Below are positions 12,819 to 53,838 of a stretch of 64,000 bases of DNA, in pieces. The notes beneath the pieces are model-generated. The model was given only the letters and a program-made list of their open reading frames with translations. It had not been told where the DNA came from and did no database searches. A program made the position numbers and the translations under genes. Position 1 is the stretch's first letter, and each line of letters starts with the position of its first letter. Source of the stretch: Rhodocyclaceae bacterium (GTDB lineage Bacteria > Pseudomonadota > Gammaproteobacteria > Burkholderiales > Rhodocyclaceae). The stretch lies in the NCBI GenBank assembly GCA_030824115.1, contig JAVBYI010000004.1:62001-126000 (forward strand). Reading direction: 5' to 3'.

Positions 12819-13394
12819 TCAGGACAGGCCGCGCCGGTACTGCACCGCTTCGGCGATGTGCGGGCCGCGGATGATCTCTTCGCCGGCCAGATCGGCGATG
12901 GTGCGCGCCACTTTCAGGATGCGGTGATAGCCGCGGGCGGAAAGATCAAGCCGTGCCATCGCCTGCTTGAGCAAGGCCGCGCCGGCACAATCTGGCAGAC
13001 AGTGCAGATCGATTTCGTCCGGCGTGAGTAGGGCGTTGGCTTTTTGCTGGCGTGCCAGTTGCCGCTCACGGGCGGTGATCACGCGCTGCTGCACAACGGC
13101 TGAGCGCTCGCCGTCGCTGCGTGTCGAGAGTTCTGACTCACTCACGGCGGGTACCTCGACCATCAAATCGATGCGGTCGAGCAGTGGCCCCGACAACTTG
13201 CCGCGATAGCGCGCCACCTGTTCGGGCGTACAGCGGCAGCGCGTTTCACCAAGAAAACCGCAGGGGCACGGGTTCATTGCCGCCACCAACTGAAAGCGGG
13301 CTGGAAACTCCGCCCGCCGCGCCGCACGGGCGACGCGGATGTGGCCGGTTTCCAATGGTTCGCGCAGGGCTTCGAGCACGCGTCGTTCAAATTC
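12819..13394 (-). pseudogene. comM: comM C-terminal part, severed by element B
   Basis: This piece encodes the last 191 residues of ComM (YifB), a hexameric MCM/Mg-chelatase-like AAA+ helicase that promotes branch migration in natural transformation. It begins at EFERRVLEALREPLETGH, just after the Walker B motif, and includes the AMNPCPCG zinc-like stretch, the arginine-finger region SGPLLDRIDL and the C-terminal Mg-chelatase domain. The frame stays open for 25 more codons into element B (to 13469), but those codons do not resemble ComM. The native gene continues in the piece at 26629-26700 and then at 52997-53838. No start codon or promoter of its own is evident. Confidence 0.93.
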
Positions 13395-13824
13395 GGACTG
13401 GGAAATTCCAATATTCCTACGATGTTCCAGTATTCCCCTACACCTACCCAGCGGGCCTTTGCTTTTCATGGCGTTATCTTAATCGGTTTCTCAAAAAGAA
13501 CGCAGCCTGGGCTCGGCTCGGCGAAGCCGAACGAGCCAGGAGGCAAGCGAGCGAAGCGGAGCGCGGCAGGTACGGAGTGTTGCCTTTGCACCCGCTAGAA
13601 CTGGGTGGGGTCCGGGGGGGGGGATCTCTTGTTGCGGCTATTTCCGAATCCGAATTCATATGCCTGTTTTCCGGCTGTGAATTTCTATAGGCGACCGCCT
13701 CATGAGTGCCCTAAGCGGAAATTACGGGTCGGGGAATGCGGACGTTCAGGACGAATTATTAGCCGCCATCGTCTGGCTGGTAGCGGTGCCGATCATCCTC
13801 TCCTCGCGGATGCGTGTTGAGCTG
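13395..13824. other. Left end of element B, no gene seen
   Basis: A 430-base stretch with no convincing gene. It starts with the att half-site and the TTCCAATATT-type repeats. A strong imperfect hairpin (13506-13540) and a run of ten G residues (13614-13623) follow. Forward-strand frames open here are shadows of comM or of the gene at 13825. Confidence 0.6.
13506..13540. repeat. Strong GC-rich hairpin
   Basis: CCTGGGCTCGGCTCGGC pairs imperfectly with GCCGAACGAGCCAGG around a GAA loop. There is no downstream T-run, so it is not a standard terminator. It may be a REP-type or recombination-related structure. Confidence 0.5.
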
Positions 13825-14418
13825 CTAGTCCTCTCGGAAATAAAACGCCCGGAGCACCCCGTCTTCATATGCAAGCTGCCGCAAATCCGCATCGGAAACA
13901 TTCTCGAAGACCAGGACCAGTACATGATTCAGGTGGTCACGAACACGCCTGCCTTGATGAATGCCCATCGATTTATCCACCGCCAGCAAAATGCCCTTCT
14001 TCACGCCTGGAGGAATGTTTGTCAGCTGTGTTCTGACAACCTCACAGCGCCCATGAGATTGGGATTCTGGAATGGCCGCCCTGATCGTCTCAACATTGCC
14101 GAGAGCGATTTCCTCAACATGGCGATCTCCAAACCCCTTCTCACTTGGCTCGAAATTATTCCGCTTCAGGAGGTCAGAGCCATGCTGCGCGAGCTCAGGT
14201 TGCCCCGGCCAGATCAGAATGCCTGTTTTACCGGCATTCAGCCATGCGTTGAGTAATCCTGTCTGGTCTTTCCGTGGCTCACATCCAAGAAGCGCGATAG
14301 TGGAAGGGCGCTTGCCATTCCAGTCACGATACTGGACTGTCATCGGATCAACCCCGTTTCCAGCAGCGGCCAGGCCGGACAAAAACGTTCCAACCAGGAG
14401 CAGGCCCCAAAGCTTCAC
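13825..14418 (-). CDS. Exported hypothetical protein
   Basis: A 197-residue protein with an N-terminal signal peptide (MKLWGLLLVGTFLSGLAAA, cleavage expected after residue 19). The mature part is mixed alpha/beta with no motif I recognise. GVKKGILLAVDKSMGI near residue 138 and HVLVLVFENVSDADLRQ near 165 look like buried strands. The start overlaps the stop of the upstream lipoprotein gene by four bases (ATGA), so the two are translationally coupled and probably act together in the envelope. It lies in the cargo near the left end of element B. No function is assigned. Confidence 0.65.
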   Translation of the reverse strand: MKLWGLLLVGTFLSGLAAAGNGVDPMTVQYRDWNGKRPSTIALLGCEPRKDQTGLLNAWLNAGKTGILIWPGQPELAQHGSDLLKRNNFEPSEKGFGDRHVEEIALGNVETIRAAIPESQSHGRCEVVRTQLTNIPPGVKKGILLAVDKSMGIHQGRRVRDHLNHVLVLVFENVSDADLRQLAYEDGVLRAFYFRED

Positions 14419-14888
14419 CGCGCTACTCCCTGCGCAAGCTTGACGGCGCGCACGGCAAACGATCCCTGAATCAGACGAATGCGATCACCCGGAGTGATGA
14501 TCTGATCATCCTTTTCCTGAACAAGCGCTTCGACCTCGGTACTGCCGTCGATCTGATAAACAATCTCGACACCAGTCTTGGCGGAAAGGGCCTTTTCTGC
14601 CACGGTTCCCGCCAGTCCACCAGCGACGGCACCGGCAATCCCGGCAACAGCGCCACCACGCGAATCCACACCAGCAGCAAGCAAACCACCGGCGGCACCA
14701 CCGGCCATGGCACCAGCCCCGGAGGGTTTCGCTTCAATAGCAACCTCCCGGACATCAATCACGGTGGCGATCTTGACCTTCATCGCCTGCTGCACCTGCC
14801 CAGTTTGATAAACGTTCTGCTTTTGCGACATACCAATACATCCGCTGAGCATGACGGCAGCGATGAGACTGACAATAATTCGATACAT
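14415..14888 (-). CDS. Glycine-zipper outer-membrane lipoprotein (SlyB/PcP-like)
   Basis: A 157-residue lipoprotein. The signal peptide ends in the lipobox LSGC at about residue 17. Residues 57-98 form a glycine-zipper membrane hairpin (GAGAMAGGAAGGLLAAGVD, then GIAGAVAGGLAGT), as in SlyB, PcP and other 17-kDa surface-antigen-like proteins. The C-terminal domain has strands such as VEIVYQIDGSTEVEALVQ and GDRIRLIQGSFAVRAVKL, which match the small beta-domain of that family. These proteins sit in the outer membrane and affect its integrity. It is the first gene of a coupled pair with the exported protein downstream. Such genes are unusual as mobile-element cargo. Confidence 0.78.
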   Translation of the reverse strand: MYRIIVSLIAAVMLSGCIGMSQKQNVYQTGQVQQAMKVKIATVIDVREVAIEAKPSGAGAMAGGAAGGLLAAGVDSRGGAVAGIAGAVAGGLAGTVAEKALSAKTGVEIVYQIDGSTEVEALVQEKDDQIITPGDRIRLIQGSFAVRAVKLAQGVAR

Positions 14889-14959
14889 GACACGGTCCCT
14901 TTATGAAAGAAGGTGAGCGGCCAACAATATGGAAATTTGCGCTCACCCCATCTGAAACT

Positions 14960-15316
14960 TCAGAACACGGCTTTCGATGCCTTGTTGTCCTGAACGGCCA
15001 GAAGAATGCTAACGATGCTGACGGCGGTCAGGCCGTACAAACCCCAAGCGGCGGTTGATCCAGCCTGATTCAGAAACATCAAGCTGATAGCGAGAGCAAC
15101 GGATGCGGCGATGATGCGCGGTACGTGCTGGCCCGTCCACGACATAGCTGCGTACGCCAGCGACGCAAACAGCAGCAGATAAGCAATTCCACCAACGTGG
15201 TTCCCAGCTTGATAGGCCTGTGTGCCCATGAAGTTGACGTAGGCCAGCGGTGAGAACCAGAAAACAACGCCCGCAACGCCCAAGACGGTTCCGATGCTCT
15301 TTCTATCCATGCTCAT
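14960..15316 (-). CDS. Small polytopic membrane protein
   Basis: A 118-residue inner-membrane protein with about four hydrophobic segments: GTVLGVAGVVFWFSPLAYV, VGGIAYLLLFASLAYAAM, IIAASVALAISLMFLNQAG and WGLYGLTAVSIVSILLAV. There is no catalytic motif. The frame is open upstream to 15460. I chose the ATG at 15316, with GGGAG just before it; ATG 15310 has better spacing and is equally possible. It is divergent from the XRE regulator gene at 15455, which may control it. The family is not recognised. Confidence 0.6.
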   Translation of the reverse strand: MSMDRKSIGTVLGVAGVVFWFSPLAYVNFMGTQAYQAGNHVGGIAYLLLFASLAYAAMSWTGQHVPRIIAASVALAISLMFLNQAGSTAAWGLYGLTAVSIVSILLAVQDNKASKAVF

Positions 15317-15454
15317 TTTTCTCCCTGAATTTGCGAATTGTGAAGAGCCTTGGCGACACTTCACTTCTTTGTGGCTGCCGGCGGGGTACTCAATACCAAG
15401 AATGGGTCGTAAATGCCGTGGCCATTTTGGCATCATAATCCGACGATACCCGAT

Positions 15455-15700
15455 ATGCAAAGGGTATCAGTCAAGGTTGATAGCAGTGGGGATTTGGTGG
15501 CCTTCGGGTCAGCCGTGCGCGCACGCCGCAAAGAAATGGGGCTGTCGCAGGAAGCGTTGGCGGATCTCGCCGAAATCGACCGCAGTCACATGGGCAAGAT
15601 CGAGCGCGGTGAGCGGAATATCTCGCTGATGAACATCCTCCGCATCGCACGCGCCGTGGGTGTTCAGCCGTCCTCTCTATTGAGAGAGGCGGGTCTGTAG
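15455..15700 (+). CDS. XRE-family helix-turn-helix regulator
   Basis: An 81-residue DNA-binding protein consisting of one Cro/C1-type helix-turn-helix. The recognition segment is LSQEALADLAEIDRSHMGKI near residues 30-49, followed by the family-typical ERGERNISLMNILRIARAV. The frame opens at 15413, but the ATG at 15455 begins the conserved domain with a short N-terminal arm. Preceding DNA is A/T-rich enough to hold a promoter. The closest targets are its own promoter and the divergent membrane-protein gene. It ends 70 bases before an IS66 remnant, so it could be what is left of a larger module. Confidence 0.8.
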   Translation: MQRVSVKVDSSGDLVAFGSAVRARRKEMGLSQEALADLAEIDRSHMGKIERGERNISLMNILRIARAVGVQPSSLLREAGL

Positions 15701-15769
15701 ATCGTTGCCCAGCGGGATATGGATAAGTCAGGACGCCAACGACTCGGCTTGCCCTGGATATAAGGGAGT

Positions 15770-15874
15770 ATTCCAAGGCAGAAGGCATCGAACGTCCTGT
15801 GCTCGCCGGAGCTTTGGCATCGTTTCGATCAGATAACGCAAGTACTTGAATGGGTCAATGCCATTTGCCTTGCC
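15770..15874 (-). pseudogene. IS66-family transposase C-terminal remnant
   Basis: About 33 codons encode ANGIDPFKYLRYLIETMPK and then a LLPWN motif. This is the characteristic C-terminus of IS66 TnpC transposases. The frame is open on both sides but upstream residues no longer match. No DDE domain or inverted repeats of a whole IS66 remain, so this is a decayed fragment, evidence that an IS once sat here. Confidence 0.75.
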
Positions 15875-16137
15875 GCTGCGGATTCCGGTGGTATTGATCG
15901 AACAGTCCAGCGAATGATCATGTAGGTCGCCGAGCGTAATCACCGGCTGCCCCCGGCCAGAAGCGGCCTTTTCGCGAGTGTCTCGATAACTGACGTCTAG
16001 AGATGTGCTGTCTGGTCTATTGCTTAAGACGCTGACAGCAGTGCCCATATGTCATGCTGCAATGGCATAATGAACCACATGGATAGCAATGCACAATCGG
16101 ACCTACTCAAGAGGCTGTCTAATAACCGCTAGGCGCT

Positions 16138-16719
16138 ATGTACGAAGACCGTGTTTTCTCGGACTGTGGATGGACACTCGAACGCCTCGTCCACGTCTTC
16201 AACTCCGAACTAAGTGTTAACCGTCGGGGCACCCATACTGATTACCTTTCGCTCAGAGCGCGCTTGCTGGACGGCTCGATCATTTGCACCGAGCTATCGT
16301 TTCACGGCAAACCAAGGCCACTCGAACCAAAGCGTGGATCTGTGCGGCCCACGGAGTGGATGCTCTTCAGAAAGTGTAGTCGGGGCGGTAGCCATCTACA
16401 TGGCTGGCTAAAGTGGTGGGCCTACCACTGGCTCCTGCAGCAGTCCGCTGCCAAGCCAAAACTGGAGCAGACCATTCCGACCTATGGCCGAGCCGACCTG
16501 CACCTTCCGGAGGTCTGGACGGTGGTGGAATGCGGGAACACAGGCCCCGGCCACGCATTGCACTACCTTGGCGTGCACCCGTCCGGACGATTCATAGTTG
16601 TACCATTCCAGCGCGCAGCACTAGAGAACATGGGGCCCTTTTGCCCGCGGCCTCTACGGGCATTTGAGTTCACGAATTCCGTGCGGGTATCCAATATCGC
16701 CGCTCATGTCGAACTTTAG
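16138..16719 (+). CDS. Cassette-borne hypothetical protein, possible nuclease fold
   Basis: A 193-residue protein of unknown function. The ATG lies four bases after a GCTAGGC sequence, a degenerate GTTRRRY cassette boundary. The segment GRADLHLPEVWTVVECGNT near residue 123 resembles the D-x(n)-E-x-x strand pair of PD-(D/E)XK nucleases, but the usual lysine is absent, so this is speculative. Several tryptophan-rich stretches (LKWWAYHWLLQQ) are notable. No signal peptide or membrane span is seen. It is followed by a tiny frame at 16732 that may belong to the same cassette. It could equally be a novel cassette protein family with no enzymatic role. Confidence 0.55.
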   Translation: MYEDRVFSDCGWTLERLVHVFNSELSVNRRGTHTDYLSLRARLLDGSIICTELSFHGKPRPLEPKRGSVRPTEWMLFRKCSRGGSHLHGWLKWWAYHWLLQQSAAKPKLEQTIPTYGRADLHLPEVWTVVECGNTGPGHALHYLGVHPSGRFIVVPFQRAALENMGPFCPRPLRAFEFTNSVRVSNIAAHVEL

Positions 16720-17012
16720 CCGGCCACACCTATGTCACTCGAATCCACACTTGCCGCCATTGAGAGAACACCAGTAGACGAAGCCGAGTTTGGTTCGTTT
16801 ACCGATCAACAGAGGCCAAGGTGCCCCCTCCATCCGATCATCGATTGTTAGCTGTGCCCTGCCCCATGGTCATCGGTCAGTACTATCATTGCATATGCGG
16901 ACAACCTGCGTGAGCGAACCCATAGTGAATAAAACAGTTACTTTGAATCGGGATGTTTTTCGATTATCAATATACGGACCGGTGGGTCCGTTGAATAACG
17001 GTTAGGTGCCAT
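16720..17012 (+). other. Cassette remnant or degenerate attC region
   Basis: No confident gene. A 39-codon frame (16732-16851, beginning MSLESTLAAIERTPVDEAEF) ends inside a GTTAGCT box at 16847-16853. It looks like the head of a truncated gene fused to a cassette boundary. The remaining 150 bases contain no ORF. A second boundary, GTTAGGT at 17001-17007, immediately precedes the next gene. Confidence 0.45.
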
Positions 17013-17372
17013 ATGGTTCCGCTCAATCTGATCGCACTTGTTCGTCGCGGTGAACTGAACTTCGAGCGTTTCGTTGAAATTCTTTCCACTCGCGGTTACC
17101 TCACAGAGGAAGATCGAGAAGCTGGGTGCAGCATGGTTTCAACAGTCATGGAGGCAGCTAATCAAGAAGACTTCGACGCTCTCTTTGCGTTGCTCCTGCC
17201 TGGGGTTCTGAACAACATTTCTTTGTCCTGCGTTGCCACCGACGAAGGAGGTCCGCGAGGTGCCTTTGCTTATGCATTGCATAACACCAATGTGATCGAG
17301 CGTGAAGACGTCATTACTGTTCTGGTGGCGGAAAATCGTGAAACTGCCAAGTGGCTCGAAAATGGCACCTAA
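17013..17372 (+). CDS. Cassette-borne hypothetical protein
   Basis: A 119-residue soluble, mainly helical protein that I do not recognise. The start ATG lies five bases after the GTTAGGT boundary of the preceding cassette. The TAA stop falls inside the ACCTAAC box of the following attC, a classic cassette layout. The sequence shows amphipathic helices (ALVRRGELNFERFVEILSTRG) and an acidic centre. The C-terminal strand EDVITVLVAENRE resembles small regulatory or immunity-type folds, but there is no specific motif. Function unknown. Confidence 0.6.
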   Translation: MVPLNLIALVRRGELNFERFVEILSTRGYLTEEDREAGCSMVSTVMEAANQEDFDALFALLLPGVLNNISLSCVATDEGGPRGAFAYALHNTNVIEREDVITVLVAENRETAKWLENGT

Positions 17373-17432
17373 CCCTTCGTTCGAGGCGACCTGCGCGAAA
17401 AGCCGCGCAGGCGCCGCAACTCCACGTTAGCC
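17367..17432 (+). repeat. attC recombination site
   Basis: ACCTAAC (17367-17373) and GTTAGCC (17426-17432) enclose a stem made of CCTGCGCG and CGCGCAGG around an AAAAGC loop. At 66 bp it has the size and symmetry of a standard attC. The upstream gene's stop codon lies in its first box. Confidence 0.88.
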
Positions 17433-17458
17433 CTCTCATCCATTCCTCTCACACATTC

Positions 17459-17938
17459 ATGCAAATGGAGCAGACAGTGACTGAACAGAACGCTGTACCA
17501 CCACAAGCAGAAGACCAAACCCAGCCCGCCCCGGTTGTAGCAGAGACCGACTGGTTCCTTCAAAGCCTGATTGGTTTCGCCAATCGTTGGGGACTCGAAA
17601 TGGGTATCACGCTTCAAGTCAGTGGCATGCTGGTTTCGGGTACGCTTATCAGCGGTGCGAAGTACTTTGAAGAGTTTGCAGCCCAATTCGCCGGCGGCTT
17701 CAAAAACAACGCCGAGCTCTCTGAGCCTTTTCATGAACTCATCTCTTCGTACAAGAAAATCTATGATGTTGCGTCCGAGGAAGATAGCGACCACCCCCCG
17801 CCCAATTATGTTCATCTGCGGAATGCCCAGTTCTATCAGCCCGGCCAGAAGCCTCTCCCAACAAACCAAGGTGTTTTGTGGCGCGGTAGGGTCGCAGAGA
17901 TCGGGGGCTTCAATCTTGGTAGCCTTTCCGAGGGCTAA
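17459..17938 (+). CDS. Cassette-borne protein, possibly GvpU-like
   Basis: A 159-residue protein. The frame runs back through the attC to 17351, but the cassette boundary at 17427 makes the ATG at 17459 the sensible start. Residues 1-27 are polar and disordered. The core DWFLQSLIGFANRWGLEMGI and LQVSGMLVSGTLISGAKYF resembles gas-vesicle accessory protein GvpU-like sequences. I am not certain of this and no gas-vesicle genes are nearby. The TAA stop overlaps a GGCTAAC box at 17933-17939. That attC has no matching downstream box, so this cassette seems fused to the next gene pair. Confidence 0.6.
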   Translation: MQMEQTVTEQNAVPPQAEDQTQPAPVVAETDWFLQSLIGFANRWGLEMGITLQVSGMLVSGTLISGAKYFEEFAAQFAGGFKNNAELSEPFHELISSYKKIYDVASEEDSDHPPPNYVHLRNAQFYQPGQKPLPTNQGVLWRGRVAEIGGFNLGSLSEG

Positions 17939-17987
17939 CCCATCGTTCCAGGGGACGCTGGGCCGACCTTGTATCGAATGAATAGTA

Positions 17988-18608
17988 ATGGACGAGTTTC
18001 TAAAACAACTAACAGAACTCGCTGACGAAGAGTCGTTACTTGACTTTTGTCGCAGACGCACTCTTCATGGGACACCTGCAGTATTTCGCGGGGACGAGGA
18101 TGCGTATTACTTCTTCCGGAAGCGAATTGCTGACAAGTTTCAAATCAACTTTCACGAGGTCTTTATCACGGGTTCTGCCAAACTTGGTTTTAGTCCCCAC
18201 AAAAGAAAACTGTTCGATCTCGAATCAGATATTGATATTGCATTGATTTCCTCTGCTCTATACGACCGAATGATGGAATTCATTCATGATTACCAAATGG
18301 AACTCCGTGGGAATCGTAAGGCAGTGTCCTTTGACGAACTCAAGGGTTATCACAAGTTTCTCGAATACAGTGCAATTGGATGGATGCGACCAGACCTTTT
18401 GCCGACGTCATTTAGAGTTGAGGCGCTAAAGACGGAGTGGTTTGCGTTCTTCGACTCAATCTCACATGGTAAGAGTGAGGTGGGTAACTACAAAGTCACT
18501 GCCGGCGCATTCAAGAGCTATAGCCACCTAGAACGCTACGCAATTAGCGGACTTCGCTCTTTGAAAACGAATTTACAAATTGGAACCTTATATGTCGCTA
18601 CAAATTAA
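17988..18608 (+). CDS. Nucleotidyltransferase-like protein paired with a DUF262 protein
   Basis: A 206-residue protein with a polymerase-beta-type nucleotidyltransferase signature. FITGSAKLGFSP (residues 60-71) fits the GS-x(n) loop, and FDLESDIDIALI (residues 77-88) gives the paired catalytic aspartates. Such folds in bacteria include the toxins or antitoxins of MNT/HEPN modules, CD-NTase-like enzymes and antibiotic nucleotidyltransferases. The end of the gene overlaps the DUF262 gene by 17 bases, so the two are coupled. The pair is clearly A/T-richer than its surroundings, which suggests separate acquisition. A defence or toxin role is inference from context; the nucleotide and target are unknown. 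Confidence 0.68.
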   Translation: MDEFLKQLTELADEESLLDFCRRRTLHGTPAVFRGDEDAYYFFRKRIADKFQINFHEVFITGSAKLGFSPHKRKLFDLESDIDIALISSALYDRMMEFIHDYQMELRGNRKAVSFDELKGYHKFLEYSAIGWMRPDLLPTSFRVEALKTEWFAFFDSISHGKSEVGNYKVTAGAFKSYSHLERYAISGLRSLKTNLQIGTLYVATN

Positions 18609-19578
18609 ACCAAGCGTTACCAATCCAACAATTGCAGATGTCTACCATCTAATTGATGATGGTAAGTTGGTACTTCGTCCCGATTTCCAGAGAAAGTTTG
18701 TTTGGACTCACGAACACCAAGAGGCTTTCATCGACACCATTCTTAATGGACTCCCCTTCCCTGAAATCTATGTTTGCGAAGGCGAGATTGACGTACAAAA
18801 GCTCCGAACAACACGTCTCGTAATTGATGGACAGCAACGGCTTACCACCATTAGAAACTATATCGAAGGCAAACATGATCATCCGTTTGCAAAGATTTCG
18901 GTATATCAAGGGCTAACTCAAACCCAGAAACAAGATTTTCTTTCTTATCAGATAGTGATGCGTGATTTAGGAAAAGTCGATGAGGAGACTACGCGAGAAA
19001 TATTTCGCAGAATTAATCTCACAAAGTTCAAACTTGACGACATTGAAATTCATAACGCCATTTATGACGGGCATTTCATTCAAGCCGCCAAGTACATCCT
19101 TGAGAACGTAAACCTTGAGCAATACGGCGTTCTACGTGAGTCTGAGTTCACTCGGATGGCAGATCTTCATTTTGTTCTTCTTGTGATGTCGACCCTTGAG
19201 AATGGCGGCTATTTCGCGCAAGACAGAGAGGTTGAGCCGAAGGTCGCATCCTTCAACGATGAGTATCCGAACCGGGATCACATAATCGCGCAACTGATAA
19301 AGACGTTTGCAATCATCCGTGACCTAGACCTGCCCTTCGACTCAATGTGGTTTAGGAAGTCAAACTTTTTCACGCTGGTTGTGGAAGTGGCAAAACACCT
19401 TGAAATGTTACCTAGCGATTTTCGAGAGCGACTTCTGAAACTTGAAGATAATGTCATGACCAACCGGTTTAACACCGACTCCGACTTCTACAAGTACTAC
19501 TCATACATGTACCAAGCTACTCATGGGCGCGCAGCGCGCGTTACTCGCGGAGAGTTTTTTGAGAAGTACTGTCTCTAG
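18592..19578 (+). CDS. DUF262 (GmrSD/ParB-like) protein
   Basis: A 328-residue protein with a DUF262 N-terminal domain. LRPDFQRKFVW near residue 28 and LVIDGQQRLTTI near residue 75 are the diagnostic motifs of the ParB/Srx-like nucleotide-binding fold found in GmrS-type restriction proteins. DGQQR is the putative NTP-binding or hydrolysing site. A helical domain follows (EIFRRINLTKFKLDDIEIHNA). There is no obvious C-terminal HNH (DUF1524) nuclease, so this is the short form. I chose the ATG at 18592 over the TTG at 18580. It is coupled to the nucleotidyltransferase-like gene, and the two together look like a compact two-gene defence or toxin module in a cassette. Confidence 0.78.
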   Translation: MSLQIKPSVTNPTIADVYHLIDDGKLVLRPDFQRKFVWTHEHQEAFIDTILNGLPFPEIYVCEGEIDVQKLRTTRLVIDGQQRLTTIRNYIEGKHDHPFAKISVYQGLTQTQKQDFLSYQIVMRDLGKVDEETTREIFRRINLTKFKLDDIEIHNAIYDGHFIQAAKYILENVNLEQYGVLRESEFTRMADLHFVLLVMSTLENGGYFAQDREVEPKVASFNDEYPNRDHIIAQLIKTFAIIRDLDLPFDSMWFRKSNFFTLVVEVAKHLEMLPSDFRERLLKLEDNVMTNRFNTDSDFYKYYSYMYQATHGRAARVTRGEFFEKYCL

Positions 19579-19916
19579 ACTGGCCAACCCATCATTCCAC
19601 CGAGCCTGCGCGAAAAGCCGCACAGTCCGGTGAATTCAAACGTTCCTGAGCGTCAGCTTTTCAAAACTGGCAGCGGCAACAATGGGTCGTGAAAAGTCCT
19701 ACAACCTTAATGCTTACATCATCAGACAGCAGTCGGCCAGAAGCGGATAAAGCACAACGAATCCGAAAGCTGCTGTTCGGACAATGCCACTGCAATTTAC
19801 GCAGCTTTTGCGATTTGTTTTGTATGCCATTCAGTTGTTATGAAAGAATAGCTTCGTCCATTGACGGAGAACTTCCCGTCATTTAGGAAGTACATTTAAC
19901 GTTAGCCCTTTCAGCC
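19579..19916 (+). other. Cassette without a convincing gene
   Basis: After the degenerate attC, bases 19649-19900 hold only a 65-codon GTG-started frame (19689-19886) with cysteine-rich but unconvincing composition and no ribosome binding site. The stretch ends at GTTAGCC (19901-19907), the boundary before the next gene. It is probably a decayed or non-coding cassette. Confidence 0.5.
19582..19648 (+). repeat. attC site, degenerate right box
   Basis: GGCCAAC (19582-19588) is followed by a CCTGCGCG-AAAAGC-CGCACAG stem and ends at GTTCCTG (19642-19648), which departs from GTTRRRY. The stem closely matches that of the site at 17367-17432. Confidence 0.7.
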
Positions 19917-20439: not shown

Positions 20440-20455
20440 CTCATAGGACAGTCAC

Positions 20456-45660: not shown

Positions 45661-45661
45661 G

Positions 45662-46678: not shown

Positions 46679-47232
46679 GCTGCACCTCCAATACGTGATT
46701 CGCGGGAAGCGCGCAGACGACGCGCCATCAGGATCAGCAGAGCGAGCCCCGCCAGGCCGGTAGCAAGCCAGGTGGCGTATTCCTGCCAGCCGTGGACTGG
46801 GGTTTCGCTGGTTGCAGCCTCCTCATGCAGATCAAGCTCGCCGGCCAGGAGGTCGGTTTCATCGCCGGCCATCACGGTGGCGGCCACTGCCACCACACCG
46901 GGTTTGAGTTCCTGCGCCAAGGTGGCTTCGAACTCCCCTTCGGCATGAAGCTCGACGGGAACCTTGACACCGCCAAGTTCCAGTTCCAGCTTGGCGTCCT
47001 TGACCGGACTGCCATCCGCGAAACGATCCAGATAGAGCGTGATCTGCTTGCCATTGACCACCCCAACCAGTTCGAACAATTCGGACTCGGCCGTGAAACG
47101 TGGCAAAGCCGGCCCGCCGGCGGCGACCGGCGCTTCGCCGTGATCATGCCCGTCGCCGGCCAGCACAGGCGGCATCGCCAAGGCAGTGAGAGCCAGCCAG
47201 CCGAGGACGGCCAAGAGTTTGTGAATATTCAT
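46675..47232 (-). CDS. Membrane-anchored periplasmic protein of the metal pump operon
   Basis: A 185-residue protein. The signal peptide MNIHKLLAVLGWLALTALAMP ends before LAGDGHDHGEAPVA, again a histidine arm identical in style to the neighbouring MFP. A beta-rich domain (ESELFELVGVVNGKQITLYLDRF, then KLELELGGVKVPVELH) precedes one C-terminal membrane span (WLATGLAGLALLILMARRL) and a basic tail. It resembles the periplasmic half of an adaptor protein and is translationally coupled between the TolC-like and MFP genes. It is a common but poorly characterised member of czc/cus-like operons. I do not assign a specific role. Confidence 0.75.
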   Translation of the reverse strand: MNIHKLLAVLGWLALTALAMPPVLAGDGHDHGEAPVAAGGPALPRFTAESELFELVGVVNGKQITLYLDRFADGSPVKDAKLELELGGVKVPVELHAEGEFEATLAQELKPGVVAVAATVMAGDETDLLAGELDLHEEAATSETPVHGWQEYATWLATGLAGLALLILMARRLRASRESRIGGAA

Positions 47233-48530
47233 GGTGTATTTCCTTGTTCGGGAAGCAGGCCCATGGCCTGCCGTAGGGCGGAGATGGCGGCGGCGAAGTC
47301 GATGCGGGCACGGGTGGCCTGACGCTCCGCTTCGCTGGCCTCAAGTTCGATGCGCAGTCGTGTCGGCAGATCGGTTTCGCCAAGGCGAAAGGATTTCTCG
47401 AAAAATCCCCGCGACTCCTGGCCCAACCGGGTGCGCTTCTCTGCGGCGGCAAGTTGATCTCGTGCGGAGTCGACCCTGACACGCGCCGCATCCAGGTCGG
47501 CTATCAGGCGTTCGCGCTCAAGACGCGCCTGGCTTTCGGCCTCGATGGCTTCGGCCCGCGCCAGTCCTGCCTTGGCACGATGGCGACTCTCCGAGCCAAA
47601 CGGGAAACGAATCCCCAAGGTCACCGTCTGTTGGTATGAGTCACCGAATACACCCCGGTCGCGAGTGGTGGCCAGGGTCAGTTCCGGGTTGGCGCGGGTT
47701 TGGACTTCCACCAGTTCGGCACCCCGCCGGGCAACTTCGGCGCGGTTGAGTAGTTCGACGACTGCCGGATGTGAAGTATCCAGTGCGGCAAAATCGGCAG
47801 GAACCTTTGGCAGGGGTTCGGGCATGGGGCCGGGAATGGCTTCGCCGGCTACTGCAAGAGCGGCCTGCTCGCCCGGCACCGTGCCGATCAAGGCGCGCAG
47901 ATGTTGTGTCGCCACGGCTAATGCTGCCTTGGCTTCGGCCAGGCCGACTTCGGCAGTTGCCATGGCGCCGTCCGCCTGATGTTGGTCGGAGCGCGCCAGA
48001 TCGCCAGCTTTGACGCGCCGGGCTACGTCACCGGCCAGTTGTTGCGCGTTGTGCAGTCGCGCTTGCGCTAGCGCGCTTTCGAGGCGCGCGCGCTGCCAGG
48101 TCCACCATGCTTCGCGGACCGTTGCCGCAATGCGTAATTGAGCAGCCAGGGCGCGGCTGGCCGTGGCTTTCGATTCAGCATCGGCCAATGCGCCGGTACG
48201 CGCGCGTTCACCGGGTAGCCACAGGGGCAAGGCGATTCCGGCGACGTATTCCCGGCTGCCCTGGTTCTTGTTGAACTGGTCAGTCTTGGCGGAGACCTCC
48301 AGCGCTGGCGGTTCGGCCGTCCAGCTATCGGCACCTTGTCGGCGCGCTTCGGCGGCGTCGCGGCGTACTGCAAGCGATTCTGCTTCTGGCTGACGTGACC
48401 AAGCCGACTCGAACACCTGCTGTAGCGTCAATGGCGCAGATTGCGCCCAAAGATTGCCGGCTGCCAGCAGGCCGCCAACAGCCAGGTAAAACGTTCGGTG
48501 CAACCCATGATGCGGGTATTTCTGAAACAT
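47229..48530 (-). CDS. TolC/CzcC-family outer-membrane efflux protein
   Basis: A 433-residue outer-membrane factor. The signal peptide is in the first 27 residues (AVGGLLAAGNLWA). Two OEP repeats with long helices follow: LQQVFESAWSRQPEAESLAVRR at about 34, and AELVEVQTRANPELTLATTRDRGVF at about 255. The channel exports metal across the outer membrane as part of the tripartite system. The frame opens at 48602, but the ATG at 48530 with TGGAGAATCGG upstream gives a proper signal peptide. Its stop overlaps the next gene by ATGA. It is the first gene of the four-gene coupled pump operon (TolC, membrane protein, MFP, RND). Confidence 0.9.
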   Translation of the reverse strand: MFQKYPHHGLHRTFYLAVGGLLAAGNLWAQSAPLTLQQVFESAWSRQPEAESLAVRRDAAEARRQGADSWTAEPPALEVSAKTDQFNKNQGSREYVAGIALPLWLPGERARTGALADAESKATASRALAAQLRIAATVREAWWTWQRARLESALAQARLHNAQQLAGDVARRVKAGDLARSDQHQADGAMATAEVGLAEAKAALAVATQHLRALIGTVPGEQAALAVAGEAIPGPMPEPLPKVPADFAALDTSHPAVVELLNRAEVARRGAELVEVQTRANPELTLATTRDRGVFGDSYQQTVTLGIRFPFGSESRHRAKAGLARAEAIEAESQARLERERLIADLDAARVRVDSARDQLAAAEKRTRLGQESRGFFEKSFRLGETDLPTRLRIELEASEAERQATRARIDFAAAISALRQAMGLLPEQGNTP

Positions 48531-48664
48531 CCGATTCTCCAGTGATAAAAGAAAACACAGGGAATCGGCGAGGTGCGACCCGCTTGGGTCGACCTGTGGC
48601 ACACGGCAAAGCCGTTGCGCTCACGCGGGAATCAAAAGAAGGAAAGGATTACCCACCCCGCCGA

Positions 48665-49021
48665 TCAGGCGAGGGGCGCCCAGTTGGGGCGTTCGGGCAG
48701 ATAGTGCGGGGAAGTGTTCGGACTGTGCTGATAGTCATCGAGGCGAGCCGAGACATCGGCAGGCGATTCGATTTGTGTCTCGCCAAAAATGGCGGTGGCG
48801 CATCCAGCATGACAGGTGCTGCAATCATTGTCGACACCACCAGAAAGCTTGGTGTCCGCATCGCCTTGATTGTCGCCCGCCTGATGCTGATGGTCATGAT
48901 GACCAAAGTGTTTGGCCTGGCCGCCCGTCTCGTGCTGGCAATAGATCGACACCGACGCCCAACTCAGTTGGAGCGGCAGAAGGACCAGCAGAAAAATGGC
49001 GAACAGGCGACGCATGGGCAA
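48665..49021 (-). CDS. CzcI-like small exported metal-resistance protein
   Basis: A 118-residue exported protein with a signal peptide (MPMRRLFAIFLLVLLPLQLSWA). The mature part has a histidine-rich cluster (HFGHHDHQHQ, near residue 38) and a conserved CSTCHAGCA near residue 71. This is the arrangement of CzcI/CzcI-like 'cobalt-zinc-cadmium resistance' regulatory proteins encoded in front of czcCBA. It lies upstream of the TolC-like gene by about 135 bases and in the same direction, so it may be the first gene of that operon. The role of CzcI is probably regulatory; its ligand is presumably the same divalent metal. Confidence 0.8.
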   Translation of the reverse strand: MPMRRLFAIFLLVLLPLQLSWASVSIYCQHETGGQAKHFGHHDHQHQAGDNQGDADTKLSGGVDNDCSTCHAGCATAIFGETQIESPADVSARLDDYQHSPNTSPHYLPERPNWAPLA

Positions 49022-49174
49022 ATCATACCAGATGAGTCGGGAATGGCAGGCGACATGCTGCGAAGGTCAGTAAACCGCTCAGCTCCGGTCATCTATCACC
49101 CCTGATGCCAGCGACAACTTTGGCCGAGAACTGGACTGACAAATGGCCGTGCCAAAAAACATGCTCAACCACAA
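49022..49174. other. Intergenic region, nothing recognised
   Basis: No gene, terminator or clear promoter seen. Confidence 0.4.
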
Positions 49175-49525
49175 TTAACCGCCGGCCTCCCTAGACCGTG
49201 TACCGGTGTAGGCAGCCTCCAGATCCAACGGCACCCAGTTCATCAGTTCAGCCAACCGACAGATAATCCACGCTGACTCCTTGGTCGTGAAATCAGAATC
49301 ATCGGCCAACAGCCCCTGAAGGCAACGCTCAAGAACCTCCTTTTCAGACAGGTTCTCCTTGAAGGCCAGTGTCTGGGCTTGTTCGGCAAGAATGCTGGCC
49401 ATGTCCTCGCACTGCTCATATCTGGTCAGCACGACATCCTGCGATGCGTTAGGACGAGTCTGTCCTGGCTTGATGTACATGGCCATGAACGACTGAGGCG
49501 GTTCAATCTGGTTGTCGATAGGCAT
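49175..49525 (-). CDS. Hypothetical protein
   Basis: A 116-residue soluble acidic protein that I do not recognise. Helices dominate (SILAEQAQTLAFKENLSEKEVLERCLQ; SAWIICRLAELMNWVPL). No signal peptide, membrane span or catalytic motif is visible. The ATG at 49525 begins MPIDNQIEPPQSF. The gene stands alone between the metal block and the carboxylesterase, on the same strand as both. An alternative start at an internal methionine (FMAMYIKPG) would shorten it by 13-15 residues. Confidence that it is a real gene is moderate because of coding-like length and composition only. Confidence 0.5.
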   Translation of the reverse strand: MPIDNQIEPPQSFMAMYIKPGQTRPNASQDVVLTRYEQCEDMASILAEQAQTLAFKENLSEKEVLERCLQGLLADDSDFTTKESAWIICRLAELMNWVPLDLEAAYTGTRSREAGG

Positions 49526-49737
49526 AGTGCGATCAGATATCCTTGAAGGGAGTCATATCAGGCCAGTTGCAACGTAAACCTGCTCATCCGGCTGCAAAGG
49601 TGACACCGCCTTGTAGTAGGCGCGTCAGCAAAGTGCCGGAGGCAGTTCACCGACGACCAGGCGGTGTCGGCCGGATATTACCGTTGAGGAACCTGCATGA
49701 GTGAGTACATGTATCCCCGCAGTGCAGGATTTCTGTT
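49526..49737. other. Intergenic region, nothing recognised
   Basis: Short frames exist but none is coding-like. It contains scattered GGCGGTGTCGG-type repeats that I could not assign. Confidence 0.4.
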
Positions 49738-50427
49738 TTAGCCTGCGCTAATGCGCGTGTTCAGCCAGGTACCAATATCCTGAATCTCTTCCATGCAAAC
49801 TGAATGGGGCATCGGGTACTCCTGCCACTGGCATGCATAATCGTTCTGCTCCAGAAAATCCCGTGCGCGCAGTCCCAATTCAATCGATACCACATCATCC
49901 TCGGTGCCATGCGCGGCAAAGATTGGTGTCTTGCGATTGGCTTCAGCAGCTTCCTCTATCACTAGCCGGGTAACGGGCAGGTAGGTCGATAGGGCAATGA
50001 TCCCGGCCAGAGGTTCGGGATGCGTCAGGCCAGTGATGTAGGCCACCGCTCCCCCTTGAGAAAACCCTGCCAGGAAAATCCGGCTGCTTGGGATGCCCCG
50101 TTCCTTCTCTCGTTCGATCAGGTCGCGAATCTGTTGCCGGGACTTTAGGATGCCATCGACGTCAATTTCACGACTGTCTTTGTCGAGGCTGATGATGTCG
50201 TACCAGGCCGGCATGACGTATCCCCCGTTACAGGTCACTGGAATGGCCGGGGCATTGGGAAAGACAAAGCGGATTCCGACGGCAGGATTCAGACCAAGTT
50301 CGGGAACGACGGACACAAAGTCTGAACCGTCAGCACCCAGACCATGCATCCAGATGACGGCAAAATGAGGCGAGTCATTGGTCTCGAGTTCCAGCGTTGA
50401 AAGTGCAGGTTCTGGCTTCATGTCCAT
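49738..50427 (-). CDS. Carboxylesterase/phospholipase family alpha-beta hydrolase
   Basis: A 229-residue alpha/beta hydrolase of the acyl-protein-thioesterase/carboxylesterase group. The oxyanion-hole region is WMHGLGADGSDF near residue 27. The nucleophile elbow is GFSQGGAVAY, serine near residue 123. The aspartate is in GTEDDVVSIE near residue 177 and the histidine in MPHSVCMEEI near residue 208. These enzymes hydrolyse short-chain esters or lysophospholipids in the cytosol. The gene lies in Tn7-like cargo, immediately downstream of the nuclease gene. I see no link to metals or defence and consider it passenger metabolism. Confidence 0.88.
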   Translation of the reverse strand: MDMKPEPALSTLELETNDSPHFAVIWMHGLGADGSDFVSVVPELGLNPAVGIRFVFPNAPAIPVTCNGGYVMPAWYDIISLDKDSREIDVDGILKSRQQIRDLIEREKERGIPSSRIFLAGFSQGGAVAYITGLTHPEPLAGIIALSTYLPVTRLVIEEAAEANRKTPIFAAHGTEDDVVSIELGLRARDFLEQNDYACQWQEYPMPHSVCMEEIQDIGTWLNTRISAG

Positions 50428-50457
50428 TCCAACCTCCCAAACGCAGAAGTGGCAATT

Positions 50458-50952
50458 TTATTGATGTCGCCACTCCCAGGGCGGCACCGGATTGGTGTCT
50501 ACCCACAGGCCGATTCTCCGTGCCTTCGCGTTGAATTCGGCAACTTCATAGTCCTCGCGGTCCTTCGGTGATTGCTCCTTTGAGTACTGGCGATACCACC
50601 AAGCCATGCCTGCCTTGACTTGTTCCAGGTTGGCATCGCGGCCCTCGACGAGGATCTTGCAGATTTCGCGTCGATACTTGTCGGTTTTGCTGCACTCTGC
50701 AATCACCTCGCGGTTGAACACCAAGGCAGATAGGTTGCTCTTTGATTTCTGGCCGAAGGGTTGATGGGACTCAGGTGCATCAATTCCAGAAAGGCGGATT
50801 TTGTGTTGTTGCCGGTTGTTGTCCAACACCGTAACCGTGTCGCCGTCACTGATGCCGACGACGACGCCTCTGATCTGGTCAGCATGCGCTGGTAATGCTG
50901 TGAAAAGAATTACCGCTAATACTCTGATTTTGAGTTGTTCAGCGATATCCAT
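50458..50952 (-). CDS. Secreted thermonuclease-like (SNase) nuclease
   Basis: A 164-residue staphylococcal-nuclease-fold protein. Residues 1-24 look like a signal peptide (VRVLAVILFTALPAHA-type, cut after AHA), so the mature enzyme is probably periplasmic or secreted. The calcium and catalytic segments are GDTVTVLDNNRQ near residue 36, IRLSGIDAPESHQPFG near residue 52 with the catalytic arginine, and DKYRREICKI near residue 90. WWYRQYS, near residue 113, is typical of this bacterial family. It degrades DNA and RNA at alkaline pH in relatives. It lies 16 bases downstream of the TnsE-like gene and is probably co-transcribed. Confidence 0.87.
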   Translation of the reverse strand: MDIAEQLKIRVLAVILFTALPAHADQIRGVVVGISDGDTVTVLDNNRQQHKIRLSGIDAPESHQPFGQKSKSNLSALVFNREVIAECSKTDKYRREICKILVEGRDANLEQVKAGMAWWYRQYSKEQSPKDREDYEVAEFNAKARRIGLWVDTNPVPPWEWRHQ

Positions 50953-50968
50953 GGGTAATGCCTAACAG

Positions 50969-52879
50969 TTAAAGAAGTTCTTTGGACAGTTTTTGCTCCC
51001 CTTCGCCTAAAGCCCTCACTTTTACGGCCCCATCATTTTTTGCCACAACTTCTGCAGCATCTTGTCCAACACTGGCTATGTCCCCGAATAACTTCCGCAC
51101 CTTAATGCGGATTCGCCGAGTGAGTACCCCCTCGTTCACAAGCCCTTGGTGTGTCGTCTTCTCTCGCCGATAATCAACCAGCTCCGACTCCAACACCCAG
51201 CGCCCCTTTATTGCACTGTCCAACAATATCGAATTGAGTTCTTTGCCGCTGAGCCGCTGAAGGGTTTTTTTCGCAATTACCAGGACGGCTAGGTTGTCAC
51301 TTTGCTTTAGTCGCTCGCTCTCAAGGACGTAGCACACACCATCACATGTTTCAACTTCGCTGATCGCTGTCATGCGTGGCCGCCACTGCTTCTTACTAAT
51401 CCTAGACTTCGACCATCCAATAGGTTTGTTGCTCTTCAAGGGATCGAACGTTGGAAAATCGACGCATGCCGATGTGTCGCTCATTACAAGTTCATCATTG
51501 ATGCTGGCAACATAGCGCACCTTGAATGCTGGATCCTCAGCGAGTTTTGTCATTGCAGCGAAGAATGTTTCCAGGCTAGGCGGAAGCGATGGAACGTGCG
51601 GTTTGTCCGCATCCTCCGACCGACATGTATTGATGTCTGAAGGCTTGCGATCCGCATTTCCCCAGGTGCCCGCACCCGTGGCAAAGCCTTCAAGCACAGG
51701 ACTAGTACCACCCAGAATCGAGGCGCTCCGATACTCCTGCCGATCAGTTTCTTCTTTGAGCAACTCCTTTCCATCGAGATCAGCGAAGCGATCTTCAAGG
51801 AGGTCGATGACCATGGGCTTGCCCCCCTTTGCCGGCTCGCCGTCGGAGTGCAGCAGGTTTTTTTCGTCCTCGTCCTTGTTCTTCTCCTTCTCTTCGTCTT
51901 CCTTGTCGATGCGCCTAATCCACGCTGGCGGCAGATTGACGTCGCCCGCATTCTTACCGCGTAGGTTGCGATTGTCCCTGTCGCACAGCAAATTACCGAA
52001 AGGAAACGGCGCTGAGCAGCGCAACAGCTTTAAAACTAGTATTCGAGAAACCAAATAACGCGGGCCCGGCAGATACAATGAAACCGCTTTCAGCTCGGTC
52101 CTGCCAGTGAACGGGAAGCCGCATTTCAGTTCCCGGAACGGCCCCGGATTGATCATTGGCGAATCTGCACGGTGCTTCTGAATGCCGTGATAGCACGTCA
52201 GCACTTGTTCCTGCATAAACTTGCTCGCGTGGAAACGGGCAAGCGTCCATGCGTCGGAGTCGTAAATCCACCTGCGTAGATGGACGCGGTACAGGTCGTC
52301 CCTGATCGGCCCACACTTCTCGACATTGATCGAATTTGCATACTCACCCCAGAAGAATGCTTGGGCGAGGCGCGTCGATGATGCATAGTAAAAGCGGATC
52401 AGCTCGGTAACCGGAAACAGAAGAGCCCAGGGATCGCCATCGAGTTCGACTGCCGCGAGCATCGTCGGTGCGGCATACTTAAAATTATTACCGAATGCAT
52501 AGTTCTTTTTTGGAATGATGCCGTGCTTCAATACCAAATCACCGAGTGATACAAACCGTACGGACGACGTGTCGATATCCATATCAAGAGCGAAAGCCGG
52601 CTCCAGGGAACCCGACACGGGCCGCCTCTTATGCCAGAGTGACCCGATGGAGACATACGGCAGCTGACCAACGCCGATCCGAACGCAACGCGTCTCCTTT
52701 GATTGCATCGAGACTTCGCTCAGTGCCTCGGCCTCATTGTCGGGAACGGCAACAAGAAGAACCTCAATTAAGGGTTCGCTGTGCACCTGCGGGTTTCCCG
52801 CTACACCGCCGAACCAGACCACCCTCCAGATCTTGTTCTCATCGGGAAATTCTGCAATGCCAGTGCCGGATTTGACCAT
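50969..52879 (-). CDS. TnsE-like targeting protein at the right end of the Tn7-like element
   Basis: A 636-residue protein that I read as a TnsE relative. In Tn7, TnsE directs insertion into conjugal plasmids and replicating lagging-strand DNA by binding the sliding clamp and 3' recessed ends. From memory of Tn7 TnsE, comparable landmarks occur in order. NKIWRVVWF at the N-terminus resembles EWRIFVWF. WALLFPVTELIRFYYASSTR matches the IPQLELARSLF helix region. GPRYLVSRILVLKL matches DYLVEEIVGLEI. The C-terminal VCYVLESERL...KTLQRLSG matches FVLLEVDA...KVLSG. A long acidic linker (about 315-350) separates two domains. Its location at the far end, outside the tnsABC-tniQ operon, is unusual, and a search is needed to confirm. 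Confidence 0.6.
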   Translation of the reverse strand: MVKSGTGIAEFPDENKIWRVVWFGGVAGNPQVHSEPLIEVLLVAVPDNEAEALSEVSMQSKETRCVRIGVGQLPYVSIGSLWHKRRPVSGSLEPAFALDMDIDTSSVRFVSLGDLVLKHGIIPKKNYAFGNNFKYAAPTMLAAVELDGDPWALLFPVTELIRFYYASSTRLAQAFFWGEYANSINVEKCGPIRDDLYRVHLRRWIYDSDAWTLARFHASKFMQEQVLTCYHGIQKHRADSPMINPGPFRELKCGFPFTGRTELKAVSLYLPGPRYLVSRILVLKLLRCSAPFPFGNLLCDRDNRNLRGKNAGDVNLPPAWIRRIDKEDEEKEKNKDEDEKNLLHSDGEPAKGGKPMVIDLLEDRFADLDGKELLKEETDRQEYRSASILGGTSPVLEGFATGAGTWGNADRKPSDINTCRSEDADKPHVPSLPPSLETFFAAMTKLAEDPAFKVRYVASINDELVMSDTSACVDFPTFDPLKSNKPIGWSKSRISKKQWRPRMTAISEVETCDGVCYVLESERLKQSDNLAVLVIAKKTLQRLSGKELNSILLDSAIKGRWVLESELVDYRREKTTHQGLVNEGVLTRRIRIKVRKLFGDIASVGQDAAEVVAKNDGAVKVRALGEGEQKLSKELL

Positions 52880-52996
52880 CTGGCAATCCTACCGAACCCC
52901 GCTTTTATTCGCAAATACCTTTGTTAGTTTTGTAGGCTATTCGCATCATCTATTGAGATGGTTCGCCTATATTCGCATTAAGCGATGGAGTTAACA
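52880..52996. repeat. Right transposon end with three TnsB-type sites
   Basis: TATTCGCA occurs at 52906-52913, 52938-52945 and 52970-52977, exactly 32 bases apart. The outermost begins 19 bases from the terminus, as at the left end. They also overlap the region upstream of the TnsE-like gene. Confidence 0.85.
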
Positions 52997-53001
52997 CCTC
53001 C
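52997..53001. repeat. Right target-site duplication of the Tn7-like element
   Basis: CCTCC, identical to 26696-26700; the two mark one insertion event. Confidence 0.92.
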
Positions 53002-53838
53002 GCCGACCAGCGCGGGCGCCGAGGCCGAATGATGCGGTGCCTGAAAAGGGCGCTGGCCCCAGCGGGCGACATCGAAATGGCCGGCGAGCGAATGGATGGC
53101 GGCGGATTCGAGTGCTTCAGTTTGCGTCATCGGTGGCAGGATGCCGGGCAAACGTTGAGCCAGCATCGACTTGCCGGAACCGGGTGGGCCAGACATCAGG
53201 AGTGAATGTTGCCCGGCCGCAGCAATTTCGAGCGCACGCTTGATTGGCAACTGTCCTTTCACTTCCGCCAGATCGGGAATAAAAGTCGGCGCTGGCGAGA
53301 CGGCAGGTAGATGGGGTGCGAGCGGTGCGGTGCCGGTCAGGTGGGCGCAGACCGCCAACAGACTGTGCGCCGGCAGGATCGTCGCATTCGCTACTAGTGC
53401 TGCTTCATCCGCGCTGGCGGCGGGCAGCACGAAACTGCGACCGGCACTGGCGGCCGACAGGCACATCGCGAGGGTACCGCGTACCGGGCGCAGTTCGCCC
53501 GACAGCGAAAGCTCACCGGCAAACTCATGAGCATCAAGCAATGGGGCATCCAGCTGATGCGAGGCGATCAGGATACCCAGCGCGATCGGCAAGTCGAAGC
53601 GGCCGGATTCCTTGGGCAGATCGGCCGGCGCCAGGTTGATCGTGATGCGCTTGGCCGGAAATTCGAAGCCGCTATTGAGCAGCGCGGCGCGCACGCGATC
53701 ACGTGCCTCCTTGACTTCGGTCTCGGGCAAACCAACTAGTGTTAGCCCTGGCAACCCATTGGCAAGATGGACTTCAACAGCCACTTCCGGGGCAGAGAGT
53801 CCGGCAAGCGCACGGCTGCGAAGAACGGCGAGGGACAT
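52997..53838 (-). pseudogene. comM: comM N-terminal part, severed by the Tn7-like element
   Basis: This piece encodes the first 280 residues of ComM. It has the Lon-like N-terminal domain (LAGLSAPEVAVEVHLANGLPG), the Walker A GPPGSGKSMLA near residue 218 and PHHSASAPALVGGG at the break. The frame continues six codons into the transposon (VNSIA and stop, to 52978), so a 286-residue truncated product with Walker A but no Walker B could be made. The native gene continues at 26700 and below. ComM is a helicase for integrating donor DNA during transformation; its loss should reduce transformation. Confidence 0.95.

Follow-up and report, generated by a model that had tools for sequence, protein, structure and literature searches.

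Two site-specific transposons at neighbouring points of one comM gene in a Rhodocyclaceae bacterium

Background

Tsy transposons were described in 2023 as inserting in the gene comM (PMC10293859), and the TnsF protein of one of them, ZooTsy, was shown to bind the Walker B region of that gene. The Tn7-like transposon AjTn6022 aims with a short TniQ of 369 amino acids (aa) and a separate TnsF; elements that carry TniQ and TnsF require TnsF for insertion in comM, and the TnsF proteins of Tn6022 and of Tsy both require a stretch of 10 base pairs (bp) in the Walker B codons (PMC10293859). ComM is a helicase for the recombination of dissimilar transforming DNA, and in 22% of the Acinetobacter baumannii strains its gene has been inactivated, whether by an AbaR island or by another element (PMC11472951). 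Here we analyse a stretch of 64,000 nucleotides from a Rhodocyclaceae bacterium (contig JAVBYI010000004.1, positions 62,001 to 126,000), called the window below, in which one comM gene is interrupted by two elements that we identify, from their genes, ends and insertion points, as a Tn7-like and a Tsy transposon. The best explanation overall, and in our judgement a very probable one, is that these are two independent site-specific transposons, each at its own preferred point in the same gene.

Results

One comM gene in three pieces

All three pieces of comM lie on the minus strand. The N-terminal piece of 842 bp, at 52997..53838, contains codons 1-281, the last one incomplete; the middle piece of 67 bp, at 26629..26695, contains the Walker B codons VLFLDE and lies between the two elements; the C-terminal piece, at 12819..13394, has 576 bp. 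The target-site duplication CCTCC is found at 26696..26700 and again at 52997..53001, where it is part of the N-terminal piece. The three pieces and one copy of CCTCC, joined by script, yield 494 codons and a stop without any frameshift. The edge of the Tsy transposon in comM is uncertain by about 2 bp, and three choices of the boundary give the same protein. Pfam finds ChlI (E 4.7e-44) and positions 1-96 of Mg_chelatase on the N-terminal piece, and positions 116-206 of Mg_chelatase followed by the C-terminal domain (E 3.7e-32) on the C-terminal piece. The frame of the N-terminal piece enters the Tn7-like transposon for five codons and stops at 52978. In its present state comM cannot yield full-length ComM.

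The original prediction, made from the window alone, was that one comM gene lies in three fragments of 842, 67 and 576 bases with a continuous frame of 494 codons and a 5-bp duplication, split by a Tn7-like element and an element with a tyrosine recombinase. The scripted joining, the two copies of CCTCC, the Pfam matches that place the N-terminal and C-terminal pieces in ComM, and the gene content of the two elements all agree with it. Two details change: the middle fragment, given as 26629-26700, is a piece of comM but also takes in the copy of CCTCC at 26696-26700, and the two insertion points are 67 bp apart, or 72 bp with the duplication, instead of 64 bp.

An intact comM elsewhere would have spoken against that prediction, and domain searches of the same genome (3.0 megabases in 24 contigs, rated 92% complete) found no second comM. 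The ChlI search gave three matches, which are the N-terminal piece and two weak ones (E 8.1e-8 and 6.9e-6) whose frame beginnings we take to be those of RadA and Lon; the Mg_chelatase search gave two matches at E <= 1e-12, taken as the two comM pieces. The genome does have a ComEC gene.

The Tn7-like transposon

The larger element, at 26701..52996 on the plus strand, is 26,296 bp long, with the ends TGACAAACCC... and TGTTAACTCC..., that is, TG...CA ends flanked by the 5-bp duplication CCTCC. At one end, on the plus strand, it encodes TnsA (26790..27437, 215 aa), TnsB (27451..29364, 637 aa), TnsC/TniB (29342..30253, 303 aa) and a TniQ with a C-terminal tail (30198..31805, 535 aa, TniQ domain at aa 30-172). 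At the other end, on the minus strand, is a protein of 636 aa (50969..52879), which is probably TnsE-like in view of its position and its relatives, found at the same place in a Sulfuritalea metagenome-assembled genome (MAG; 44% identity) and in genomes G603 and G469. This protein had no match to the solved TnsE, and its AlphaFold2 model has a mean pLDDT of 30.

The break in comM is in codon 281 (ALVGGG), and elements with TniQ and TnsF in G483, G603 and G258 break comM at this codon too; the duplication is readable in G483 and G258, where it is 1 bp off that of the window. By gene content, ends and site we thus identify the element as a Tn7-like transposon of the TnsABC-TniQ kind, inserted at the codon where Tn6022-type elements sit, with G483, G603 and G258 as the reference for that site. 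A tnsF hidden in this element was considered and rejected: across the window, the hidden Markov model (HMM) of six TnsF proteins matches only the TnsF of the Tsy transposon, the next match having E 0.22.

The Tsy transposon

The smaller element, at 13395..26628 on the minus strand, is 13,234 bp long, its edges known to about 2 bp. It contains an operon of four minus-strand genes that overlap or adjoin, in the order YRec, a tyrosine recombinase of 384 aa with its catalytic motifs present (25179..26333), a small helix-turn-helix (HTH) protein of 135 aa (24775..25182, HTH_26 at E 1.4e-6), TnsF (22960..24771, 603 aa), and a GIY-YIG nuclease of 100 aa (22661..22963, E 2.6e-12). The TnsF has a CxxC-rich N-terminal part, with CxxC pairs in common with other TnsF proteins, and a tyrosine at 584. 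Its match to the double zinc ribbon, E 4.7e-4, is under the Pfam cut-off; it matches the HMM of six TnsF proteins at E 2e-217, though it is itself one of the rows of that HMM.

The ends of the element resemble those of ZooTsy. The best match across the 64 kb to the 30-mer of ZooTsy end2 is exactly at 13395, with 22 of 30 positions and 18 for the runner-up, and the best match to the ZooTsy end1 primer is at 26528, with 18 of 21 positions and 15 for the runner-up. The insertion is after the Walker B codons of comM, with the YRec end toward the 5' part of the gene. In G708, comM breaks after LFLDELP, identically to the window, and adjoins a Tsy relative. G794 has a Tsy relative, too; one of its comM pieces, lying at the edge of a contig, begins at this codon, but a comM spanning that point is present as well, so that the case is ambiguous. 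Gene set, ends and insertion point agree in identifying the 13.2-kb element as a Tsy transposon.

How often the two sites are filled

For a census, 399 genomes were drawn evenly from the order, and 346 of them have an Mg_chelatase match at E <= 1e-12. Genomes that looked split were chosen by eye from the genome table; 26 were re-examined, in addition to four known beforehand. In at least 17 of the 346 (about 5%, a lower bound), namely the present genome and at least 16 others, comM is split on both sides of the Tn7 site. Interruption of comM is therefore not special to Acinetobacter. At the Tsy site, we found two-sided splits in G677, G809 and G708, the ambiguous case of G794, and one-sided splits in G612, G523 and G649. 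Three genomes (G571, G806 and G813) were dropped, their comM being contiguous; both comM pieces are at contig edges in G679, and G527 and G584 have weak single comM matches.

Among the genomes examined, both sites are clearly filled only in the genome of the window. If the sites were filled independently, 17 splits at the Tn7 site and 4 to 8 at the Tsy site among 346 genomes would give 0.2-0.4 genomes hit at both; one is observed. The double hit thus brings together two homing habits that are already known, and is compatible with co-occurrence by chance. The idea that the two hits are specially linked was considered and rejected, since these rates make one co-occurrence ordinary. The second insertion in one gene, which the original prediction called unusual, is a new case, but one that known kinds of element account for, and the tyrosine-recombinase element is itself of a kind known to insert in comM.

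Other elements were met in comM along the way. In G677 and G809 (loci L153 and L155), elements of about 91 and about 39 kb split comM at the Tsy point, with other tyrosine integrases, of 517 and 474 aa, near the N-terminal piece; the Tsy point thus seems to be used by further elements. In locus L103 (G087 contig 7, 1-18000), the tnsA end of a Tn7-like element lies directly before comM codon 76, the N-terminal part being off the contig, and codons 217 and 211, at the Walker A motif, are separated by 7 kb that encode a large serine recombinase (11374-12903): this comM, too, seems to have received two insertions, of other elements. In G031 contig 20 (loci L039/L104), a Tn7-like element interrupts comM near codon 236, which makes a third insertion point of such elements in the gene; the TnsB and TniQ of this element are 26% and 28% identical to those of the window.

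The tail of TniQ

In an alignment of nine TniQ proteins, the window's TniQ is matched beyond about residue 391 only by its Sulfuritalea relative, which is 68% identical to it over 530 aa. An HMM of these two tails detected further tails in the flanks of comM insertions in G479, G665 and G548, and alignment added those of G643 and G579. By profile match, tail residues about 440-525 correspond to the N-terminal half of a tyrosine-recombinase catalytic domain. Compared by hhalign with a profile of 26 Xer-type proteins and YRec, the five-sequence tail obtains a probability of 95 and a score of 57.9, the maximum of 200 column shuffles being 20.6; the two-sequence tail scores 36.2 against the Xer profile, with a shuffle maximum of 25.6. 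With the HMM of all seven tails, the best Xer protein is matched at E 8e-13 and the YRec of the window's Tsy transposon at E 8e-10. On the strength of these profiles, the tail is recombinase-derived. It is also very unlikely to be an active recombinase, since it spans half a catalytic domain, has GWT where the aligned enzymes carry GLR, and lacks the HxxR motif.

Several other searches bear on the tail. BLAST of TniQ against TnsF and YRec gave nothing meaningful, Pfam gave no match on the tail, and hhalign of the two-sequence tail against YRec gave P 0.0023 with a probability of 13. A PDB search with the tail returned XerD at E 0.23 and 0.34, under an unrelated receptor at 0.046 and 0.12. The Xer profile, used with hmmsearch, gives 7.0 bits to the window's tail, whose own shuffles reach at most 6.1, and two shuffles of the other tail reached 9.8 and 7.3. 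Among 398 Pseudomonadota genomes, the tail was found in the present genome only; the sensitivity of this search was probably insufficient, since tails later turned up at comM elsewhere. As to earlier work, we met no description of a tailed TniQ in the available text of PMC10293859 or in the titles and abstract openings of other papers, a scope that leaves subscription journals mostly outside.

Elements at codon 281

Sixteen elements at codon 281 have a readable tniQ: 14 from the sample of the order, the one of G258 from a sample of the class, and the one of the Sulfuritalea MAG. The two-sided splits G507, G653 and G718 and the one-sided splits G619, G083 and G064 have no readable tniQ. About 5-19 kb were examined per element, the window, G469 and G548 being covered end to end or nearly. 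A tailed TniQ is found in seven of the 16 (window, Sulfuritalea, G479, G665, G548, G643, G579), a TniQ together with TnsF in five (G483, G603, G258, G557, G769), and a short TniQ, with neither tail nor TnsF found, in four (G469, G630, G650, G657).

In the Sulfuritalea MAG, the comM N-terminal piece adjoins the relative of the 636-aa protein, the C-terminal piece is unbroken across the Tsy site, and the duplication GGCGG occupies the same bases as the GGAGG of the window. No match to TnsF was found in this MAG with a query that did find TnsF relatives in G258 and G483.

In G469 (L137:8694-9887), a DruA (Druantia) gene begins right at the end of the tail-less tniQ; this gene was considered as a selector, and rejected once recognised as DruA. 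Cargo may have replaced the TniQ tail in this element. Tail remnants beside the short TniQs were also considered, and were rejected, none having turned up in the scan of class i and class iii loci. Locus L021 (Bryobacterales MAG PMSX01000179.1) has a TnsB and a TnsC about 61-62% identical to those of the window, followed directly by a relative of the 636-aa protein; no TniQ match was found in its 14.5 kb, and comM is intact in that genome.

Trees of transposase and TniQ

Among the 19 rows compared, the elements of G479 and G665 lie at the low extreme of identity to the window for TnsB (32%) and TnsC (30-32%), but close to the high extreme for the TniQ core (47-48%). The groups for the tree tests were picked after these identities had been seen, and the resulting values should be read with this in mind: a clade of the six elements whose TniQs are akin is rejected by TnsB and TnsC (p-AU 1e-87) and not by TniQ (0.32), and the TniQ data mildly reject the arrangement of the transposase (0.032, or 0.031 without the longest branches). 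This conflict between the two trees suggests a probable exchange of selectors between transposase lineages. The TniQ core tree rejects the grouping of the seven tailed TniQs in one clade (p 0.016) and does not reject a clade of five (p 0.27); the tailed TniQs are thus not established as a single clade.

Discussion

How the two elements may have been placed

By analogy with ZooTsy (PMC10293859), the Tsy transposon would have been placed at the Walker B region by its own TnsF. The Tn7-like transposon would have been placed by its TniQ, fused to the N-terminal half of a dead tyrosine-recombinase catalytic domain; the fused protein would do in one chain what TniQ and TnsF do in Tn6022, a placement for which we see the chances for and against as about equal. 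Either order of insertion is possible: a Tsy insertion needs a stretch within 40 bp upstream of its site and a Tn6022 insertion some 40-50 bp on each side (PMC10293859), and each element leaves in place the stretch needed by the published relative of the other. The Walker B codons survive in the 67 bp that separate the two elements. More generally, we give an even chance to the existence of a class of Tn7-like transposons that homes to comM by a fused selector, without zinc-finger array or TnsF, at the same codon as the TniQ-TnsF elements, and whose selector was traded between distant transposase lineages.

Several observations weigh against a fused selector. The four elements with a short TniQ speak against the tail being always needed, and in one of them, that of G469, the TniQ closely resembles the window's and the duplication lies at the same position. 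No tail remnants were found near the short TniQs in the fetched DNA of the scanned loci (class i and class iii). An origin of the tail in TnsF has no support: the seven-tail HMM matches the Tsy TnsF at E 0.16 only, and hhalign of the two-sequence tail against TnsF came back empty. In the structure model of TniQ, pLDDT is about 37-53 from aa 451 on, poor over most of the tail, and Foldseek matched the TniQ core alone and nothing in the tail. The empty answer for TnsF in Sulfuritalea is by itself no proof of absence, and the two comM pieces and the tniQ of that MAG are on three contigs, linked by kinship and not by contiguity. The tail may also have other tasks.

The short TniQs at the same codon lead to a reading in which the TniQ core, or an HTH-like stretch seen by eye at aa about 360-405, reads comM, the tail being a scaffold or a relic. 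It is in keeping with a tail gained or lost more than once, as the rejection of the seven-member clade in the TniQ core tree (p 0.016) would have it. On the other hand, seven of 16 elements retain a tail that is alignable, at low identity, across two far-apart transposase lineages, and the elements with TniQ and TnsF do require TnsF for insertion in comM (PMC10293859); we regard this reading as doubtful, though the more serious of the rivals. The same four elements could instead be understood if a Tn7-like element without its own comM selector were guided in trans by the TnsF of another element, perhaps that of Tsy: the window's Tn7-like transposon has no tnsF while the neighbouring Tsy encodes one, and recruitment in trans is suggested for short-TniQ elements without a partner (PMC10293859). 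Yet the Sulfuritalea relative lies at the same bases with the Tsy site unbroken, in a genome without TnsF match, and TnsF of the Tsy type was met in few of the genomes searched: beyond the present genome, only partial or distant matches were found, in 2 of 369 genomes at E <= 1e-10 and 4 of 399 at E <= 1e-20. Guidance in trans is, to our mind, unlikely.

There is finally the idea that an assembly artefact brought the comM pieces together or apart. The assembly is a draft in 24 contigs, but the window lies inside a contig of 430,851 bp, and its junctions show a clean duplication and recur in other genomes. Misassembly is unlikely since both insertion points and both types of ends are found again elsewhere, and taken together these points make an artefact scarcely credible. 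We keep the reading of two independent transposons, with a fused selector as the candidate for aiming the Tn7-like one.

Cargo and a plasmid relative

Behind tniQ, the Tn7-like transposon carries the type I Wadjet genes jetD, jetC, jetB and jetA (31989..38740, minus strand), and at 40282-48602 a cation-efflux protein with, by eye only, a heavy-metal RND pump with adaptor and outer-membrane parts. In the cargo of the Tsy transposon, a GmrSD_N (DUF262-like) protein with a weak NsnA match in PADLOC (17988-19578) is directly preceded by a 206-aa protein that looks nucleotidyltransferase-like by eye, and the two are possibly a defence pair; at 21162-22687, a HipA-like kinase, slightly under the Pfam cut-off, overlaps a 270-aa protein without Pfam match.

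A Tsy-like YRec-HTH-TnsF operon, with 34-38% identity, is also found on a large plasmid, plasmid 2 of Variovorax sp. SRS16 (L032, 6345-9740). Pieces of comM remained unmatched in the 17.7 kb fetched around it, so that its target may differ from comM.

Consequences of the double hit

The broken gene would imply loss of ComM function here. Loss of comM brings transformation down by about two orders of magnitude, as cited in PMC11472951; in this bacterium, transformation by dissimilar DNA would become less efficient, and both elements could thereby be protected from replacement. The gene preserves a natural record of two transposons that home to adjacent points, and the 67 bp remaining between them show that both comM sites can be occupied at once. 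If a one-chain selector is indeed at work, it would be a simple object for studying how Tn7-like elements turn binding into aiming, and comM would be the meeting point of three routes from a recombinase to an aiming device: the TnsF of Tsy, the TnsF of Tn6022, and the TniQ fusion.

Comparison with known systems

An SE or GInt element was also considered for the element with the tyrosine recombinase; this identity was dropped because the gene order, ends and target of Tsy fit. GInt elements reportedly carry the genes ginA-D, which differ from the set of recombinase, HTH protein, TnsF and GIY-YIG nuclease of the window. SE and GInt elements resemble the one in the window in having a site-specific operon of tyrosine-recombinase-like proteins and small partners with one large recombinase-like member; the SE genes intA, tfp, intB and srap are set apart, by the description of the gene sets, from the one ordinary recombinase, HTH protein, TnsF and GIY-YIG nuclease found here (PMC10214605). 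The nearest described element is ZooTsy, of Zoogloea sp. LCSB751, which has the same order of YRec, HTH protein, TnsF (with its tyrosine 584) and GIY-YIG nuclease, matching ends, and an insertion in comM after Walker B (PMC10293859). The window's Tsy, compared with it by description, has other cargo and adjoins a second transposon in the same gene.

With the Tn6022 type (AjTn6022, PMC10293859, and the AbaR islands), the Tn7-like transposon shares TnsA, TnsB, TnsC and TniQ, the site at codon 281 and a 5-bp duplication; its orientation in comM is that of the G483 element, and at its far end it probably has a relative of TnsE, whose gene the Tn6022 type carries on the opposite strand near the left end. 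It differs in having no tnsF, in its TniQ of 535 aa with a recombinase-like tail, and in a duplication 1 bp off those of G483 and G258. The one TniQ-TnsF fusion described, SCZ64694 (PMC10293859), is alike in that TniQ is joined to a tyrosine-recombinase-like selector part; compared by description, what is added to the window's TniQ is instead the first half of a catalytic domain, with no zinc-finger array. PMC10293859 foresees recombinase-derived selectors fused to TniQ as an end point of domestication, and the tailed TniQ is a candidate for this end point, in a form unlike that one fusion.

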